Notes under the pieces: model-generated
What the model was told of the DNA's origin: nothing
Databases searched by the model: none
The model's input: only the letters and a program-made list of their open reading frames with translations
Program-made: the position numbers and the translations under genes
In this document: positions 1,545-31,853 of the stretch, one piece after another
Position numbering within the stretch: position 1 is the first letter of the stretch
How the letters are laid out: every line of letters starts with the position of its first letter
Source: Myxococcales bacterium
GTDB lineage: Bacteria; Myxococcota_A; Polyangia; Polyangiales; Polyangiaceae
Direction of reading: 5' to 3'
Assembly (NCBI GenBank): GCA_947473045.1
Contig: CANJCO010000054.1
Coordinates: 1-32,732, forward strand
DNA length: 32,732 bases

Positions 1545-2255
1545 TCATCGCAGCCGGAACTCTACCGTCCACAGCAGGCGCACGCGCACGAGCTTTCCCT
1601 CGTGACGCGCGGGAGAAAATTTGTAGGACCTCACAGTTGCCTGCGCGGCCTCATCAAACTCCTGACCGGCGCCCGTCGCGACGCGCGCAGTCTCGACGAC
1701 GCCCGAAGTGCCTACGACCAGCTCGAGGGTCACGGCCGCCTCCCGGCCGTCTGCGCGGGCTTGCTCGGGATAGGCGGTTGGCTCGCTCGACAGCAGCCTT
1801 GCAGGCTCGCCGACCCGCTCCTGCGCGAGCGTTTCGGGTGCAGACGCGCCGCGCGGCGACTCCGAGCTCCCGAGGCCATCGCCGCGCGCAGCCGTGGCCG
1901 CGACGCTCAGCGAAAATCGCGGAGGCGCGCCCTCGGTCGCGATCGCAGGTGCCTCGGCCGCCTCGCCCCCGCCCCCCGGCGCCGTAACCGCCGCCTCCGC
2001 GGATGGAGCGGCCTGCGACGGTGCCGGGCTGGCGGCTCTGTGCTCGTGCGCCTCTGCGGCGGCTGGGATCGGGGTGAGAGGCGCCTGCGGCTCGGGGCGG
2101 GCGGGATCGACGACGGGCGCGACCTCCACCTCGACCTCGACGGCAGTCGCCGACCCGCCGCCCTGCCACGCTGAGGTCGCAGCGCCGCCGTGACCGACCA
2201 CGACGGCGATCGCGCCGTGCACCGCGAGCGCGGACCCGACCGCCCAAAATTTCAC
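1545..2255 (-). CDS. tonB: TonB-family energy transducer
   Basis: A 236-aa protein with an N-terminal membrane anchor (about residues 4-28, with His13 inside the segment, as in TonB proteins). A long Pro/Ala/Glu-rich periplasm-spanning region follows. The C-terminal TonB domain is at about 160-236 (AYPEQARADG...VTLELVVG...VRSYKFSPA). Such proteins pass ExbB/ExbD-derived proton-motive energy to outer-membrane receptors. No exbB or exbD lies in the window, so the motor must be elsewhere. Start: GTG at 2255. It is divergent from the receptor at 2361, its likely partner. The IS target site begins 7 bp past its stop codon, leaving the coding region intact but changing its 3' end. Confidence 0.85.
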   Translation of the reverse strand: MKFWAVGSALAVHGAIAVVVGHGGAATSAWQGGGSATAVEVEVEVAPVVDPARPEPQAPLTPIPAAAEAHEHRAASPAPSQAAPSAEAAVTAPGGGGEAAEAPAIATEGAPPRFSLSVAATAARGDGLGSSESPRGASAPETLAQERVGEPARLLSSEPTAYPEQARADGREAAVTLELVVGTSGVVETARVATGAGQEFDEAAQATVRSYKFSPARHEGKLVRVRLLWTVEFRLR

Positions 2256-2360
2256 GACGGTCGCCTCATCACGAGGCGATTCGTAGCACGAATACGCCTA
2301 AAATCGTGCTCGCCTGCTCGTGACACGTTGCTCTCCATCCGTGCTACGGCTCTTCGCGCC
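2256..2360. promoter_or_regulatory. Divergent tonB/receptor control region with two inverted repeats
   Basis: This 105-bp gap separates the divergent starts of tonB and the receptor. It contains TCGCCTC-ATCAC-GAGGCGA (2261-2279) and AGCACGA-N12-TCGTGCT (2285-2310), both perfect 7-bp inverted repeats. The 12-bp spacer of the second is the AT-richest part of the gap. The position suits an operator that co-regulates both genes, as expected for nutrient- or metal-responsive TonB systems. Neither repeat resembles a canonical Fur box, so the regulator is unknown. Confidence 0.5.
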
Positions 2361-4850
2361 ATGCGGTATCGAAGTATTTTCGCGCGCGTCGTTGCTTGCA
2401 GCCTCTCGCTCGCGCAAGTCGCGAGCGCTGCGGAGAGCCCCCCGCCTGCGGCCGTTCTGCCGCCTTCGCTCACGAGCCGCGCCGAGGCCGTTTATCCCGC
2501 CGATGCGCTTCGCGACCGCCTGGAAGCGACCGTCGGGCTCGAGCTGTCGATCGATGCCGCAGGACACGTCGCAGCCGCCCGCGTCACTTCGTCAGGAGGC
2601 CATTCGTTCGACGCCGCGGCGCTCGCGGCGGCAGCGCAGTTCGTCTTTTCGCCCGCGTCGCGTGGAGGCGTCGCGATCGGGTCGACGATCGAGCTCGCCT
2701 ACGACTTCAAGCTGCCGCCCGCTGCGCCTGCCGTACCAGCGCCCGCGCCGGCGCCCACGCCCGAGCCGCTGCAGACCGGGACGGACCAGTCCACCCTCGT
2801 ACTCGCGCAGCGGCCAATCAGCGCCGCGTCGTCGATGTCGGTGCGTGATCGCGATTTTGAGCTGAGGCCGGTAGGCAGCGTCACCGACATTCTGCGCGTG
2901 ACGCCCGGGCTCGTGATGGTGCAGCACTCGGGTGGCGGAAAGGCCAACCAGTATTTCATCCGCGGGTTTGACGCTGACCACGGCAGCGACCTCGCGCTGT
3001 CGATCGACGGCGTGCCGATCAACATGGTCTCCCATGCCCACGGACAGGGCTTTAGCGATACCAACTTTATCATTCCGGAAGTGGTATCCCGCGTGGAGAT
3101 CACCAAAGGTCCCTACTTCGCCAATCAAGGCGATTTCGCCACGGCAGGCGCGGTTAATCTCGTGTCGCGCGACAGCTTCGAGCACTCGTCGTTCGGCTTC
3201 GGCGTGTCGGGCTCTCCTGGCTACGGACAGCCCGGATACCGCGCCCTCGCCATTGCCAGTCCCATGATCGCAGCGGGGGTGCACGCGACCTTCGCGGCCG
3301 AGGTGGGGCGCAGCAACGGGCCGTTCGAGCATCCCGACAAATGGGGAAAATACAAGCTGTTTACCAAGCTGGCCTACGCCACCGGTGATGCGTCGTCGCT
3401 CACGGTCACCCACATGAGCTACGGCGGCGATTGGCACGGATCGGGGCAGGTTCCGGCGCGCGCCATCGAGCAGAATATCGTATCCCGCTTCGGGGCGCTC
3501 GACCCTTCGGAGGGGGGCGCGACCACGCGTCACCAATTGGCGCTGCAATACAAGCTTCGCCCGACCGCAGCGAGCGAGTTCAAGGTGCTGGCCTACGTAG
3601 GCTCGTACGATTTCGACCTGTATTCGAACTTCACGCAGGCGCTGCGTGATCCCGATCGCGGTGACGAGATTCAGCAAATCGACAGGCGATCGTTCTACGG
3701 CGGCAAGGCGAGCTACCGCGCCGTGCACAGCCTCGGCGCGGTGCGCTTCGACACCACCCTTGGCACCGAGCTGCGCGCCGACGCCATTCATCAGGAGCTG
3801 TGGAACACCGCCGCGCGGCAACAGCTGCTGCAGGTGCGCGGCAGCGACGTCGGGCAGACCACCATCGGCGCGTATCTGAGTGAGGAGATCGCGCTGGCGG
3901 CGTGGCTGCGGATCGCCCTCGGAGGCAGGGCCGACCAGCTCTCCTACGCGGTGAACAACACCGTCACGGGCGCCGCCCCGGGCGAGCCGTCAAGCGGCGC
4001 ATCGGCCGCCCGGCAGCTTAGTCCGAAGGCGAGTCTGGTGGTCACGCCCCTGCAAAAAAAGTCGGCTGAGGTCGACGTGTACGTCAACTATGGACACGGC
4101 CTGCATTCCAACGACGTGCGAGGCGCGTTTTCAGCCTCGCCGGTCTCGCCGCTCGCCCGCGCAGTGGGCGAGGAAATCGGGGCGCGCGCGAGGCTTTGGC
4201 AGAAATGGGATATCGCAGCTGCGCTGTGGCAGCTCGACCTCGCGAGCGAGACGGTGTGGAACGGCGACGACGGAACCACCAGCGTGGGCGGCGCGACCAC
4301 TCGCCGGGGCGCTGAGGTCGAGACGCGCTACGAGCTCACCAAGTGGCTCGCGGCCGACCTCGACCTCACATTCACCCAATCCGCATTGACGACCAATGGC
4401 GGCAACGGCAGCGGCCTCGCGCTCGCCCCGAAGCGCACCTGGGCGGGGGGACTGTCAGGCCGCGCTCCGCTTGGCCCGGGCGTGCTGCGGGGGGGCCTTC
4501 GCTTCTTCGGCATCGCCGATCGACCTGCGACCGACGACGGAGCGCTCGTCGCACCGGGTTTCACTGAGGTGGATATGCATGTAGGATACAGGCACCGCCG
4601 GTTCGACGTCGCGCTCGACGTTGAGAACCTCCTCAACTCCGAGTTCCGCTCGGCGCAGTTCGCGACGACGTCACGCCTGCCAGGCGAGCCGCCGATTGGA
4701 TCTGCCGTCCCAGCAGGGTTTTCGTGCGGCTCAGCGGGCCGCCTGGTCGCGGGGCCGGTTGCAGGGCGTTTCTACGGCTGCGAAGACGTCGCCTTTACGC
4801 CCGCGTATCCGCTCACCCTGCGCGTCACCTGGACGGTCTTTCTCGACTGA
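2361..4850 (+). CDS. TonB-dependent outer-membrane receptor with N-terminal TonB-C-like domain
   Basis: An 829-aa outer-membrane receptor. A signal peptide (residues 1 to about 23, ending ASA) is followed by a domain at about 40-118 (AVYPADALRD...VTSSGGHSFDAA...FVFSPA) that resembles the C-terminal domain of TonB itself. Then come a Pro/Ala linker (119-140), a plug domain at about 155-270 (DILRVTPGLVMVQHSGGGK...DGVPINMVSHAHGQG...VEITKGPYFANQGDFATAGA) and a beta-barrel to the end (TWTVFLD). The reading frame is open further upstream, but ATG 2361 begins the signal peptide and is preferred. The ligand cannot be read from sequence; the His-containing plug loops (HSGGG, SHAHG) are notable. It is divergent from tonB and ends 4 bp from glgX (convergent). 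Confidence 0.9.
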   Translation: MRYRSIFARVVACSLSLAQVASAAESPPPAAVLPPSLTSRAEAVYPADALRDRLEATVGLELSIDAAGHVAAARVTSSGGHSFDAAALAAAAQFVFSPASRGGVAIGSTIELAYDFKLPPAAPAVPAPAPAPTPEPLQTGTDQSTLVLAQRPISAASSMSVRDRDFELRPVGSVTDILRVTPGLVMVQHSGGGKANQYFIRGFDADHGSDLALSIDGVPINMVSHAHGQGFSDTNFIIPEVVSRVEITKGPYFANQGDFATAGAVNLVSRDSFEHSSFGFGVSGSPGYGQPGYRALAIASPMIAAGVHATFAAEVGRSNGPFEHPDKWGKYKLFTKLAYATGDASSLTVTHMSYGGDWHGSGQVPARAIEQNIVSRFGALDPSEGGATTRHQLALQYKLRPTAASEFKVLAYVGSYDFDLYSNFTQALRDPDRGDEIQQIDRRSFYGGKASYRAVHSLGAVRFDTTLGTELRADAIHQELWNTAARQQLLQVRGSDVGQTTIGAYLSEEIALAAWLRIALGGRADQLSYAVNNTVTGAAPGEPSSGASAARQLSPKASLVVTPLQKKSAEVDVYVNYGHGLHSNDVRGAFSASPVSPLARAVGEEIGARARLWQKWDIAAALWQLDLASETVWNGDDGTTSVGGATTRRGAEVETRYELTKWLAADLDLTFTQSALTTNGGNGSGLALAPKRTWAGGLSGRAPLGPGVLRGGLRFFGIADRPATDDGALVAPGFTEVDMHVGYRHRRFDVALDVENLLNSEFRSAQFATTSRLPGEPPIGSAVPAGFSCGSAGRLVAGPVAGRFYGCEDVAFTPAYPLTLRVTWTVFLD

Positions 4851-19625: not shown

Positions 19626-21701
19626 CTAGCGGCTGGGCTTTTTGAAGGCGCTCGTATCGACGCGCTGTCCTCGTGCGGCGGACTCGCTGATCACGCGCGG
19701 CGTGATCCCGGTGGCCACGTGCCCTTCGCCGGACTCGTCGGCCACGAAGACGTCGCGGGTCGCGATGCCGGTTGCGCTGTCGGCGGCGAGCTCGGCGATG
19801 CGCCCGACGCGGTAGCGCCCGTCGCTCAGTTGGTGCACCTCAATCGCGATGTCGAAGGCTTCGGCGATGCACGAGCGGGCAGCGTCGGTTGACATACCCG
19901 GACGCGACAGCAGCAGCTGAGAGACGAGTCTCGCGAGGCCCTGTCGAAGGGAGGGCGCGGTAGACGCAGCGAGCACGCCTTCTGCGCCTTGCCCGACGGC
20001 TTCGAGGGTGGAAGTGAGCGCCCCGCTGGCGAGGTTGCTCACGATCCAGCGGTCGGGGCGGGTGCGCGCGGCGGCGTGAAGCAGCTCGTCGCTCCCGATA
20101 CCAGCGCGGAGCCGGAGGGCGTGGACCGGTCCGACGTTGAGCTCCTCTTCTTCACCCGCGACGACCACGCGCTCGCCCGGCGAGCTGCTCGACGCCAGCG
20201 CCGCGACAAACCCGACCGACGCCGATGCGCTCGAACCGCAGACGAGCAGGTTCGTCTTCGCGAACAGGCACGCCTCGAGGAAATTGGCCATCGCGCGGCT
20301 GAGCGCGCCGAGCCGCACGAAATCTTCGAGCGCCATTTCGACGCGGCGGCGCTTGCGAATGATGAGCGCGTGGCTCTGCGATCCCGGCGGCGCGAACGCG
20401 ATCATGTGCGCGCCTCGCGGCAAGTGTCGAACGATGCTCGTCTCGCCGGCTGCCACCGGCTCGCCGGACTGGGCCGCGAGGCGCCCGATCGCGCGACCGA
20501 GGGCCGCGTCGGTCGTGAATCCGGCGTCTGCGAGCGCCAGCCCGGACGACTTCACGAGCAGCACCTGATCGTGCCGCGAGCAGTGAATCTCGGTCGCGTC
20601 GTCGTCGTCGAGCGCGGCGCTCAGCGCCCCCAACCCCACGAGCTCGCGAAGCGCGTCTTTCGAGAGTGAGTCGACCGTGACGCCCTCGGGCAGGCCCTCG
20701 TCGGCAGCCATGGCCTTCGCCTGCTCGAGCGCGAGGCGCTCCAGGCTTGCGCGCGTTCCCTCGCTTACCGGGTGTGCATCGAGCTCGGAGAGATCGGCGA
20801 CGTCGGCGATGCGATCGAGCAGCGTGACGAGGGCGAGTCGGCGTCCGGCCTGCACTGGCGATTCGCGCGGCGGCAGGCGGGACGGCACGGAGGAGGGCAC
20901 GGTGCGCGCCGGCGCGGATGCGGCCACCGACGGCGCTGCAGGCTGAGGCGGCGGAGCTACCGACGGGGAGCGCGGCGCGGGCGCCGGCGCCTGCTGCGCG
21001 GGCGGCGACGCGGGGAGAGCGAGCGTGCTGCGGCCAGGCGCAACATTGGCCATTGACGGCATGCGGGGCGGCGCCGGCACCTTGGCGGCCGGGGCCGGGG
21101 CACCCCTGAGCTCGGCGTCATCGGTCGGCTGATCGGGAGGCGACGTCGGCGCTGCGAGATCGCGCGTCACGGCGGGCGGCTGCGCGCGCGGGGCGGGCGC
21201 TTGAGCCACGGAGGGCAGAGGTGCGCGCGGGGCGGCTACTGCCGGTTGCGGCCGCTGCGGAGCAGCAGGCGCGGGCTGTGGCACGGGGGGCGGAGCCGCG
21301 GGCACAGGCGGGGGCGCGGGGGCTGCAGCCATCGGCGGCGGTGGCGGCGCGAAAGGCGGCGGCATGTGGCCTGCTCCGGTGGCGTCTTCGACGCTCGCCT
21401 CACCTTCGGCGCTGCCGGTGTCGACCCGCAGGATGAAGTCGCCGATGTAGATCTTGTCGCCTTCGCGAACAATCGTCGCCTGCGCGATTTTGCGCCCGTT
21501 GACGTACGTTCCGTTGGTGCTCTTCAGGTCGGTGACGATGAATCGTCCATCGCGGTAGAGCAAACGCGAGTGGTGCTTGGAGACGTTGCCCTTGGGCAAC
21601 ATGAGATCGTTGCCCTGCACGCGGCCGACGTTGATCTCGTTCTTGTCGAACGTCTCCCTGCGCTCTGCGCCGCCCTTCTCGCTGATGATGATCGCGAACA
21701 T
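19626..21701 (-). CDS. FHA domain fused to a CpaF/TadA-like pseudo-ATPase
   Basis: A 691-aa cytoplasmic protein. The FHA phosphopeptide-binding domain (about 1-95) keeps its key residues: Gly26-Arg27, SKHH (41-44) and STNGT (61-65). A Pro/Ala-rich linker runs to about 284. The C-terminal part follows the secretion-ATPase (CpaF/TadA, GspE superfamily) layout, but three catalytic sites are lost. The P-loop reads GSSASAS (489-495) with no GKT, RPDRWIVSN (548-556) lacks the usual Walker-B Glu, and the His box is replaced by STAP. It is probably a scaffold or a regulatory partner, not an ATPase. The ORF is open to 21734, but ATG 21701 has AGAGG 5 nt upstream and starts the FHA domain. It may read signals from Ser/Thr kinases such as the one at 30138-31853. 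Confidence 0.88.
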   Translation of the reverse strand: MFAIIISEKGGAERRETFDKNEINVGRVQGNDLMLPKGNVSKHHSRLLYRDGRFIVTDLKSTNGTYVNGRKIAQATIVREGDKIYIGDFILRVDTGSAEGEASVEDATGAGHMPPPFAPPPPPMAAAPAPPPVPAAPPPVPQPAPAAPQRPQPAVAAPRAPLPSVAQAPAPRAQPPAVTRDLAAPTSPPDQPTDDAELRGAPAPAAKVPAPPRMPSMANVAPGRSTLALPASPPAQQAPAPAPRSPSVAPPPQPAAPSVAASAPARTVPSSVPSRLPPRESPVQAGRRLALVTLLDRIADVADLSELDAHPVSEGTRASLERLALEQAKAMAADEGLPEGVTVDSLSKDALRELVGLGALSAALDDDDATEIHCSRHDQVLLVKSSGLALADAGFTTDAALGRAIGRLAAQSGEPVAAGETSIVRHLPRGAHMIAFAPPGSQSHALIIRKRRRVEMALEDFVRLGALSRAMANFLEACLFAKTNLLVCGSSASASVGFVAALASSSSPGERVVVAGEEEELNVGPVHALRLRAGIGSDELLHAAARTRPDRWIVSNLASGALTSTLEAVGQGAEGVLAASTAPSLRQGLARLVSQLLLSRPGMSTDAARSCIAEAFDIAIEVHQLSDGRYRVGRIAELAADSATGIATRDVFVADESGEGHVATGITPRVISESAARGQRVDTSAFKKPSR

Positions 21702-21828
21702 TCGTACCTCTGGAGGTGCGGGGCCTTTGGCCACGCGGGCGTTTGGTGCTCTCCCGCCCGCAGCGCCGGGAGCGGCTTGGCGGACAGGGTCGCAGAAGCG
21801 CGCCGCGAAAGCGCCGACGCTGGGCCGA

Positions 21829-30137: not shown

Positions 30138-31853
30138 TCACGGATTTTCTACGAGCGATCGCACCGTCGCGCGAGACTCGCATCGCGCGATCGACGCGGT
30201 GAGATCGAGGCCGTCCGGCAGCATGCCCTGAACCTGTCCGACGATTTGCTCGACGAGGTTCCTGGCCTCTTGCGGGCCGGGCCCCGCCATCGCCACGGCG
30301 AACCGCAGCGGCCCCGTGTGGCCAGCCGTGACCGCGATGAGCGACAGCAGGAACATGTCGGTGAGCTCGACCACGCGCGAGGCGGCGCGGCGGAGCGCGA
30401 GCATCTCGAGGATGGTGGGCCGATCGCTTACTACGCGGTTGGGGCCACGAATCTCGTAGCGCGCGATCGATAGCGGGGCATCGACCCACTCCGCGAACGC
30501 GGCCTCTTCGTCGAGCGCCCGGAGCAGGTCTTCCTGCTTGAGGAGCCCGGTGAGTCCGTCCCGGCGCGCGAGGTAGGCGCGAGCGCGCTTGTGCCCCGAG
30601 CTTTCGCGCGCGAACGACACGAGCTTGAAGCGCAGCTCACCGAGCTGAACTTCGCCTCCGTGAAGCAGGCTCACGCTCTTTTTGCGCTCGTAGGTGTGGT
30701 CGGCGTAGGTGCCGTTGGTCGATCCGGCGTCTTCGACAAACCACGAACCGGCCTGCCATTTCACCCGCGCGTGCTGGCCGCTGACGGTGGCCTCGGGCAC
30801 CACGATTTCGTTGTCGCTTCGGCGACCGATCGTGAGCTCGGGCTTGTCGAGGGCGATGAGCTCGCCGACGAAATCGTGCGCGTTGCTGGCGAAGGTCGCG
30901 AGCAGGCTCTGCTGGCCCGGCGCAAACTGATTTTGCGAGCTGCGACCCAGCGGCGCGCCCGGATCGAGGCGCTCGATCGGCAGCTGCACCGGGTTGGTCG
31001 TCAGGGTCACCGGATTGAAAAACCGCAGGTGGCGCGCGGGCAGGCGCTGCGCGGGATCGTCGGCGAGGCAGCGGAAAATCTGCTTGATCTCGTCGACCGA
31101 CAGACCCGCCGGGACGTCGAACATGATCTGCGACTTCATCGACTTCGCGCGGGGCTTGTAGCCCGGCTCGGGCACGCGGCAGGTCCACATTTCCCACAGC
31201 GTGAGCCCCAGCGCGTAGACGTCGTCTTCCGAAGACGCGCCGCCGGACCGGATGCGCTCGGGGGACATGTAGTTCGGCGTTCCGCCATCGGGAGGGGCGC
31301 CGGGCCTGCGGGCGCTGACGCGGGCGCGCTCTTTTGCAAAGCCGAAATCGAGCACCACGGCCTTGCCGACCGAGCCGTCGGCGTTGGTGGTCACCATCAC
31401 GTTGCCGGGCTTGAGGTCGCCGTGGACGAGGCCCTGCGCGTGAATGGCGCCCACGCCGGATGAGATCTCGCTCGCGAGGCGCCGAAACTCGTCGGCCGTA
31501 TAGCCGCCCTGGGCCTTCTTGCGGCGGATGTGCGTGTGGAGCGTCTGCCCCGTCATGTATTCCATGACGAGGATCGGACCGAACAGGGAGGGGGCGAGAT
31601 CGTGGACGCGGCAGACGTTGGGGTGGCTCACCGAGCGGGCGTGGAGCAGCTCCTGCCGCAGCGCTTCGTCGTCGCCGGGCATGCGCGCTTCTTCGCGGAC
31701 CACCTTGAGGGCCACGGCCTGCTGCGTCGATCGATCGTAGGCGAGAAAGACCTCGCCCATGCCGCCCTTGCCGAGGCTCTGACGAATCTCGTAGCGCTCG
31801 TTGACGATGGACCCTGTGGTTATCGGCGGCGCGCTTCGTGTGGCTTCGGACAT
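30138..31853 (-). CDS. Ser/Thr protein kinase with FHA and degenerate GGDEF-like domains
   Basis: A 571-aa soluble protein. The kinase domain (about 21-280) has GKGGMGEV (28-35), the ATP Lys50 in VALK, HGDLKPGN (144-151; Gly in place of Arg before the catalytic Asp146), DFG (169-171) and SPE (197-199). All catalytic residues are present, so activity is expected. The FHA domain (about 330-412) has IGRRSDNEI, SGQHARV and STNGTYAD. The tail (428-571) opens with RRDGLTGLLKQEDLL, like the start of a diguanylate cyclase domain. The signature position reads LTDMF (497-501) and not GGDEF, so it cannot be a normal cyclase. No membrane segment. Likely an operon with the membrane protein downstream. Confidence 0.9.
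   Translation of the reverse strand: MSEATRSAPPITTGSIVNERYEIRQSLGKGGMGEVFLAYDRSTQQAVALKVVREEARMPGDDEALRQELLHARSVSHPNVCRVHDLAPSLFGPILVMEYMTGQTLHTHIRRKKAQGGYTADEFRRLASEISSGVGAIHAQGLVHGDLKPGNVMVTTNADGSVGKAVVLDFGFAKERARVSARRPGAPPDGGTPNYMSPERIRSGGASSEDDVYALGLTLWEMWTCRVPEPGYKPRAKSMKSQIMFDVPAGLSVDEIKQIFRCLADDPAQRLPARHLRFFNPVTLTTNPVQLPIERLDPGAPLGRSSQNQFAPGQQSLLATFASNAHDFVGELIALDKPELTIGRRSDNEIVVPEATVSGQHARVKWQAGSWFVEDAGSTNGTYADHTYERKKSVSLLHGGEVQLGELRFKLVSFARESSGHKRARAYLARRDGLTGLLKQEDLLRALDEEAAFAEWVDAPLSIARYEIRGPNRVVSDRPTILEMLALRRAASRVVELTDMFLLSLIAVTAGHTGPLRFAVAMAGPGPQEARNLVEQIVGQVQGMLPDGLDLTASIARCESRATVRSLVENP

Follow-up and report, generated by a model that had tools for sequence, protein, structure and literature searches.

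In the FHA-GGDEF protein DgcB of Bdellovibrio bacteriovorus, a threonine in the tail of the protein is bound by the FHA domain, and this binding gates the GGDEF dimer (PMC6733907). BE21_29150 of Sorangium cellulosum, a protein of 974 amino acids, was described in the same paper as a kinase-tail-FHA-GGDEF protein (PMC6733907), and a kinase-TPR-GGDEF architecture had been listed in 2005 (PMC1262709).

The gene described in this contribution lies near one end of a window, by which we mean the whole analyzed stretch of 32,732 nucleotides of a Myxococcales bacterium contig (CANJCO010000054.1). Its product combines a Hanks-type Ser/Thr kinase domain, an FHA domain, and a tail that, judging from profile comparisons and structure prediction, has the fold of a GGDEF domain and has lost the signature of a cyclase. 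Regulatory pseudo-enzymes are familiar from the kinases; for GGDEF domains in one chain with a kinase, such a role has, to our knowledge, seldom been described.

Domain Order and Distribution

The features of the locus are collected in Table 1. The reading frame and the kinase-FHA order claimed in an earlier note on this DNA were confirmed, the two domains by Pfam matches. All the elements by which Hanks-type Ser/Thr kinases are recognized (the glycine loop, the Lys, the alpha-C Glu, H(R/G)D, and DFG) are present, and the corresponding residues, G28, G30, G31, G33, K50, E68, H144-G145-D146, and D169-F170-G171, are invariant in 75 of 75 aligned rows; the FHA residues G343, R344, S358, H361, N380, and G381 are likewise invariant in the 75 rows. 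A promoter scan revealed no sigma-70-like site. Elsewhere in the window, positions 19626-21734 of the minus strand encode a second FHA protein (702 aa), in which FHA is the only kind of domain that Pfam recognizes, and positions 2190-4850 of the plus strand encode an 886-aa TonB-dependent receptor in which a TonB C-terminal domain precedes the plug domain, an odd combination.

Table 1. Features of the kinase gene and of the gene downstream of it, in window coordinates
Feature	Residues	Position	Strand	Basis or remark
Whole ORF, kinase-FHA-pseudo-GGDEF protein, 571 aa		30138..31853	minus	Relatives full-length at 52-83% identity
Hanks-type kinase domain	21-275	31029..31793	minus	Pfam PF00069, E 5.9e-43
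Linker	276-325	30879..31028	minus	Residues 280-291 of low confidence in the model
Thr285	285	30999..31001	minus	Invariant in 75/75 rows; within the low-pLDDT segment 280-291
FHA domain; GR, SxxH, and NG intact	341-405	30639..30833	minus	Pfam PF00498, E 3.3e-15
Predicted pseudo-GGDEF domain with leading helix	413-571	30141..30617	minus	AlphaFold2 model, fold searches, profile comparison
DGLTGL, DxLT turn of GGDEF proteins	432-437	30543..30560	minus	Conserved in the tail alignment
RYEIRGPNR, replacing the DxDxFK stretch	465-473	30435..30461	minus	Profile and tail alignment
RPTILEMLALRRAA, first part of the long helix; conservation within the tail is highest here	478-491	30381..30422	minus	Tail alignment
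LTDMF, end of the long helix	497-501	30351..30365	minus	Profile alignment and model
GPLRF at the GGDEF hairpin, signature lost	514-518	30300..30314	minus	Model and profile alignment
Partner gene, 244 aa, starting 27 nt after the kinase stop codon		29376..30110	minus	One hydrophobic segment, four-Cys domain

Among 59 related genomes, others of the same GTDB family encode proteins that are 58-83% identical over nearly the whole length, and three genomes of one sister family encode a form with 52-54% identity, the tail of which carries about 15 additional residues close to its end. Since Polyangium, Sorangium cellulosum So ceGT47, and Labilithrix are among the relatives that bear names, the family is Polyangiaceae. 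The tail is matched in 96 of 98 Polyangiaceae genomes, mostly in a single copy, the two genomes with no tail match being G024 and G029. When 235 genomes of the phylum were searched with the tail profile, true relatives were found in 18 of them (17 of the same family and one of the sister family), and no relative was found beyond these two families; at most 16 candidates were scored per genome in this search, so that weak relatives could escape it. The named loci considered below are 80 of 100 confirmed relatives, and in all 74 of those that do not run off a contig the tail is joined to a kinase and an FHA domain. Some large genomes carry second, more diverged kinase-FHA-pseudo-GGDEF copies (L032, L033, and L034). 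The purF gene, which lies nearby in 25 of the 80 loci, was considered as a functional partner and was rejected because the neighborhood is not conserved.

A GGDEF Fold in the Tail

Pfam finds nothing beyond residue 412, and neither Pfam nor NCBIfam offers a credible identity for the tail. The Pfam GGDEF family (PF00990) does not match the tail at E 10, matches none of 37 tails, and does not include this tail among its 15 places in the genome. AlphaFold2, provided with an alignment of 80 tails, returned a tail model with a mean pLDDT of 88.7 and a pTM of 0.84. All 50 matches listed by Foldseek against the PDB are GGDEF-domain proteins, with TM scores of 0.55-0.70 by query length, and VIA comparison gave Z values of up to 15.9 (rmsd 3.1 over 155 residues), with 14.2 for Bdellovibrio DgcB, 6hbz (rmsd 4.1 over 145 residues).

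When the tail profile was compared with 14 GGDEF domains encoded in the same genome, the probability was 95.7% and the score 56.1, against a maximum of 17.4 for 60 column-shuffled profiles and 12.5 for the reversed profile. The DGLTGL region, in which D is conserved in 77, G in 80, L in 79, and T in 75 of 80 tails, supplies most of this score; when the comparison is started after DGLTGL, the score is 20.2 versus a shuffled maximum of 17.3. Among sequences of solved structures, WspR and other diguanylate cyclases came on top, weakly (E 0.24-0.63), and one of the five matches is a designed helical bundle. In the 235 genomes of the phylum, the tail profile also found 11 weak places outside the family (20-29 bits) in 11 genomes, one of which is also among the 18 with true relatives; all 11 ORFs carry a recognizable GGDEF domain, and three of them are, by eye, FHA-GGDEF proteins. 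By model and by profile, the tail is a GGDEF fold: of the marks of the superfamily, the fold and the DxLT turn are present and the Pfam PF00990 cut-off is not reached.

The GGDEF-like tail of the earlier note, which had been proposed from DGLTGL following the FHA domain, has thus held up in fold prediction, structure searches, and profile comparison, and the two points on which that reading had been made to depend came out in its favor, as the predicted fold is that of GGDEF and DGLTGL is conserved among orthologues. A search with GGDEF profiles, as suggested there, gave a divided answer, since the profile of the genome's own GGDEF domains matches the tail but that of Pfam does not. The letters LTDMF are where the note placed them; they are, however, not the signature but the end of the predicted helix 481-502, and both the model and the profile alignment put the hairpin at GPLRF.

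Loss of the Cyclase Signature

The roles of the residues that contact metal and GTP and that form the inhibitory site are known from canonical GGDEF domains. In the profile alignment with those 14 GGDEF domains, GG[DE]EF pairs with G514-P-L-R-F518, and in the full-length model the turn between the predicted strands 510-514 and 517-523 is the GGDEF site. Neither of the two marks of a diguanylate cyclase, GG[DE]EF and the RxxD I-site, occurs in any of the 80 tails (74 distinct): GG is absent at 514-515, an acid is absent at 516 and 517, and RxxD is absent, in 80 of 80. Leu516 and Phe518 are invariant, 79 of 80 tails have Arg or Lys at residue 517, and the position of the DxDxFK stretch reads RYExRGPNR. 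Because the signature residues are lost, catalysis and classical I-site binding of c-di-GMP by the tail are, by sequence, very unlikely. The suggestion that the tail senses c-di-GMP therefore finds no support as far as the I-site is concerned; nucleotide sensing in a remodeled pocket is possible.

GGDEF counts made by profile search overlook such degenerate domains. Of the 15 GGDEF proteins of the source genome, ten were scanned, and four of these combine FHA with GGDEF; the organism may thus make frequent use of phospho-gated cyclases.

Selection on the Tail

Summed dN/dS values for the tail, FHA domain, linker, and kinase are 0.38, 0.47, 0.36, and 0.19, respectively, over 737 pairs, which are not independent, as they share branches, and in which synonymous sites are partly saturated; for the tail, three close pairs among those listed gave 0.009 to 0.051. 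Mean pairwise identities are 64, 63, 66, and 83% for the tail, FHA domain, linker, and kinase, respectively. By these sequence measures, purifying selection acts on the tail, at about the strength seen for the FHA domain.

The Downstream Membrane Protein

Of the 77 named loci that have at least 1000 nt downstream, 65 have an ORF related to the partner gene directly after the kinase (66 of 80 overall), and the other 12 do not. Conversely, 80 of the 93 strongest partner places, found in 91 of 98 genomes in a count that omits weaker matches, lie directly downstream of the kinase on the same strand. The partner adjoins neither the three sister-family genes (L035-L037) nor the second copies L032, L033, and L034, and in three genomes of one genus (G013, G076, and G096) the kinase is present with no partner match. 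A strong partner match with no kinase-tail match was seen in G024 (contig C62:74002-74676, minus strand). The same genomes also hold weaker relatives of the partner at other places; these score about 47-75 bits and lie mostly in ORFs of about 300-400 aa.

In 66 of 67 partners, a strongly hydrophobic segment with a consensus motif at its end lies within the first 120 residues, and the domain that follows it contains four invariant Cys. No credible relative of the partner family was found in Pfam, NCBIfam, or the PDB. By its sequence, the partner is a membrane protein with a single membrane-spanning segment that belongs to none of the known families, and it is likely a signal source or a substrate of the kinase.

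Proposed Function and Alternatives

We consider, with a probability of roughly 0.55, that the protein is a cytosolic kinase-FHA-pseudo-GGDEF switch that works with the downstream membrane protein. The reasons are that no motif of the kinase or the FHA domain is missing, that the sequence marks the cyclase as dead, that the protein lacks a membrane segment, and that the neighboring gene encodes a membrane protein. The tail probably regulates the kinase rather than making c-di-GMP, and it is best read as a dimerization or regulatory module. A signal arriving through the membrane partner would act on the activity of the kinase, which would phosphorylate a threonine, Thr285 of the linker being a candidate, or a partner. 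The FHA domain would then bind the phosphothreonine in cis or across the dimer, and this binding would reposition the pseudo-GGDEF domains, which may serve as a dimerization and docking module that sets the activity of the kinase or its choice of targets. Dimerization, autophosphorylation, and the contact between Thr285 and the FHA domain are proposals that we infer.

Thr285 is put forward as the first candidate autophosphorylation site and FHA ligand by analogy with the gating threonine in the tail of DgcB. It lies, however, about 45 residues before the FHA fold versus about 18 for the DgcB threonine, and this distance speaks against the switch, as do the 12 named loci and the three sister-family loci in which the partner does not adjoin the kinase. 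A further reservation comes from the FHA tree, which is poorly resolved: among its 46 rows, the FHA domain was not grouped with its counterparts in FHA-GGDEF proteins and tended toward other FHA domains. Descent from an FHA-GGDEF enzyme is thus unproven; that the gene arose when such an enzyme was fused to a kinase is plausible but equally unproven.

The main rival of the switch is the possibility, which we regard as rather unlikely, that the remodeled pocket is a sensor that controls the kinase upon binding a ligand, be it a nucleotide, another small molecule, or a phosphorylated one. Segments 465-473, 476-493, and 511-518 correspond to those that line the nucleotide site in cyclases. They are the best-conserved part of the tail, with new residues, among them the conserved Arg 465, 469, 473, and 478: their 35 positions have a mean conservation of 0.90 versus 0.71 for the other 88, and only one of 123 circular shifts of the pocket mask, its own position, reaches as high, although the mask was drawn after the alignment had been seen. 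The same conservation could equally mark a protein interface; in addition, the GTP- and metal-binding residues have given way to others, and the I-site is absent. Degenerate GGDEF receptors, e.g., CdgA, are known (PMC6733907). By extension, the former cyclase pocket could have been rebuilt into an allosteric site for a ligand or phosphopeptide on the kinase and form, with the partner, a signaling unit spread through the Polyangiaceae. We hold this to be a tentative idea; if true, what was once a second-messenger enzyme at the output end of signaling would now feed into a eukaryote-type kinase as an input.

It is more doubtful that the tail mainly docks the membrane partner and holds the kinase at the membrane with no switching role of its own. 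The tight gene neighborhood and the finding that the kinase protein has no transmembrane segment by hydropathy fit this explanation, but the tail is retained in the three genomes with no partner match, and the interaction of kinase and partner is itself putative.

That the tail has kept cyclase activity behind an unusual signature is highly improbable. Position 467, that of the first metal ligand in canonical GGDEF domains, is Glu in 63 of 80 rows, and the predicted fold is that of GGDEF; against this, the hairpin residues Leu516, Arg/Lys517, and Phe518 are fixed or nearly so, the DxDxFK stretch is gone, and the C-terminal helix is short in the model. A decaying remnant with no function, as might be read from the lost signature and the missing Pfam match, is hardly credible for a tail that is joined to the kinase in every uncut locus, is found in nearly all genomes of the family, and has the low dN/dS values given above.

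The preferred reading, a kinase switch with a dead cyclase as its regulatory part, concerns a near-universal, mostly single-copy gene of the Polyangiaceae that comes with a ready operon partner, which makes the role of the dead cyclase inside the kinase testable.

Comparison with Known Systems

DgcB resembles the kinase protein in having an FHA domain with intact phosphothreonine-reading residues, a linker, a DxLT turn, and a GGDEF fold at nearly the same spacing; it differs in having GGEEF and RxxD, in making c-di-GMP, and in having no kinase domain in the chain (PMC6733907). The FHA Asn and the DxLT Asp are 52 residues apart in our protein, 53 in DgcB by the residue numbers given in PMC6733907, and 50-53 in 13 of 15 FHA-GGDEF proteins, the remaining two having been missed by the search pattern.

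BE21_29150, compared by its published description, shares the domain order and the bacterial family with our protein and has 974 versus 571 residues (PMC6733907); it may or may not be related to the 571-aa family. An intact ancestor was sought in 28 loci with GGDEF matches. Eight of these are from Sorangium So ceGT47, and the other 20 were picked out of 80 places in eight further genomes of the family for their frame length or a weak score. No single ORF gives a kinase match, an FHA match, and a GGDEF match together, and the published 974-aa protein was thus not found. The Clostridium thermocellum protein (1826 aa) is like ours in carrying a Ser/Thr kinase and GGDEF in one chain, with TPR repeats in place of FHA (PMC1262709). 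CdgI and CsrD of E. coli have a GGDEF fold lacking the active-site signature and were studied for their interactions; in the portion of that paper used here, neither these nor similar degenerate GGDEF proteins are described as attached to a Ser/Thr kinase (PMC5635695).

Another kinase with a C-terminal degenerate GGDEF domain is encoded in Sorangium genomes (L172:1486-3411 and L186:2508-4814, both on the minus strand). It has also lost the signature (YRRDF in L172), but it has no FHA domain and its GGDEF domain is still recognized by Pfam. The theme of a kinase joined to a degenerate GGDEF domain thus recurs. The literature searched contained no description of the 571-aa family or of its partner. 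The bridge between two signaling languages that the earlier note saw in this protein is not new as an architecture, given the fusions of kinase and GGDEF already reported (PMC1262709, PMC6733907). The pseudo-GGDEF kinase family is a hitherto undescribed variant, as far as that literature goes, of the published kinase-GGDEF and FHA-GGDEF themes, and its downstream membrane-protein partner is likewise new here.
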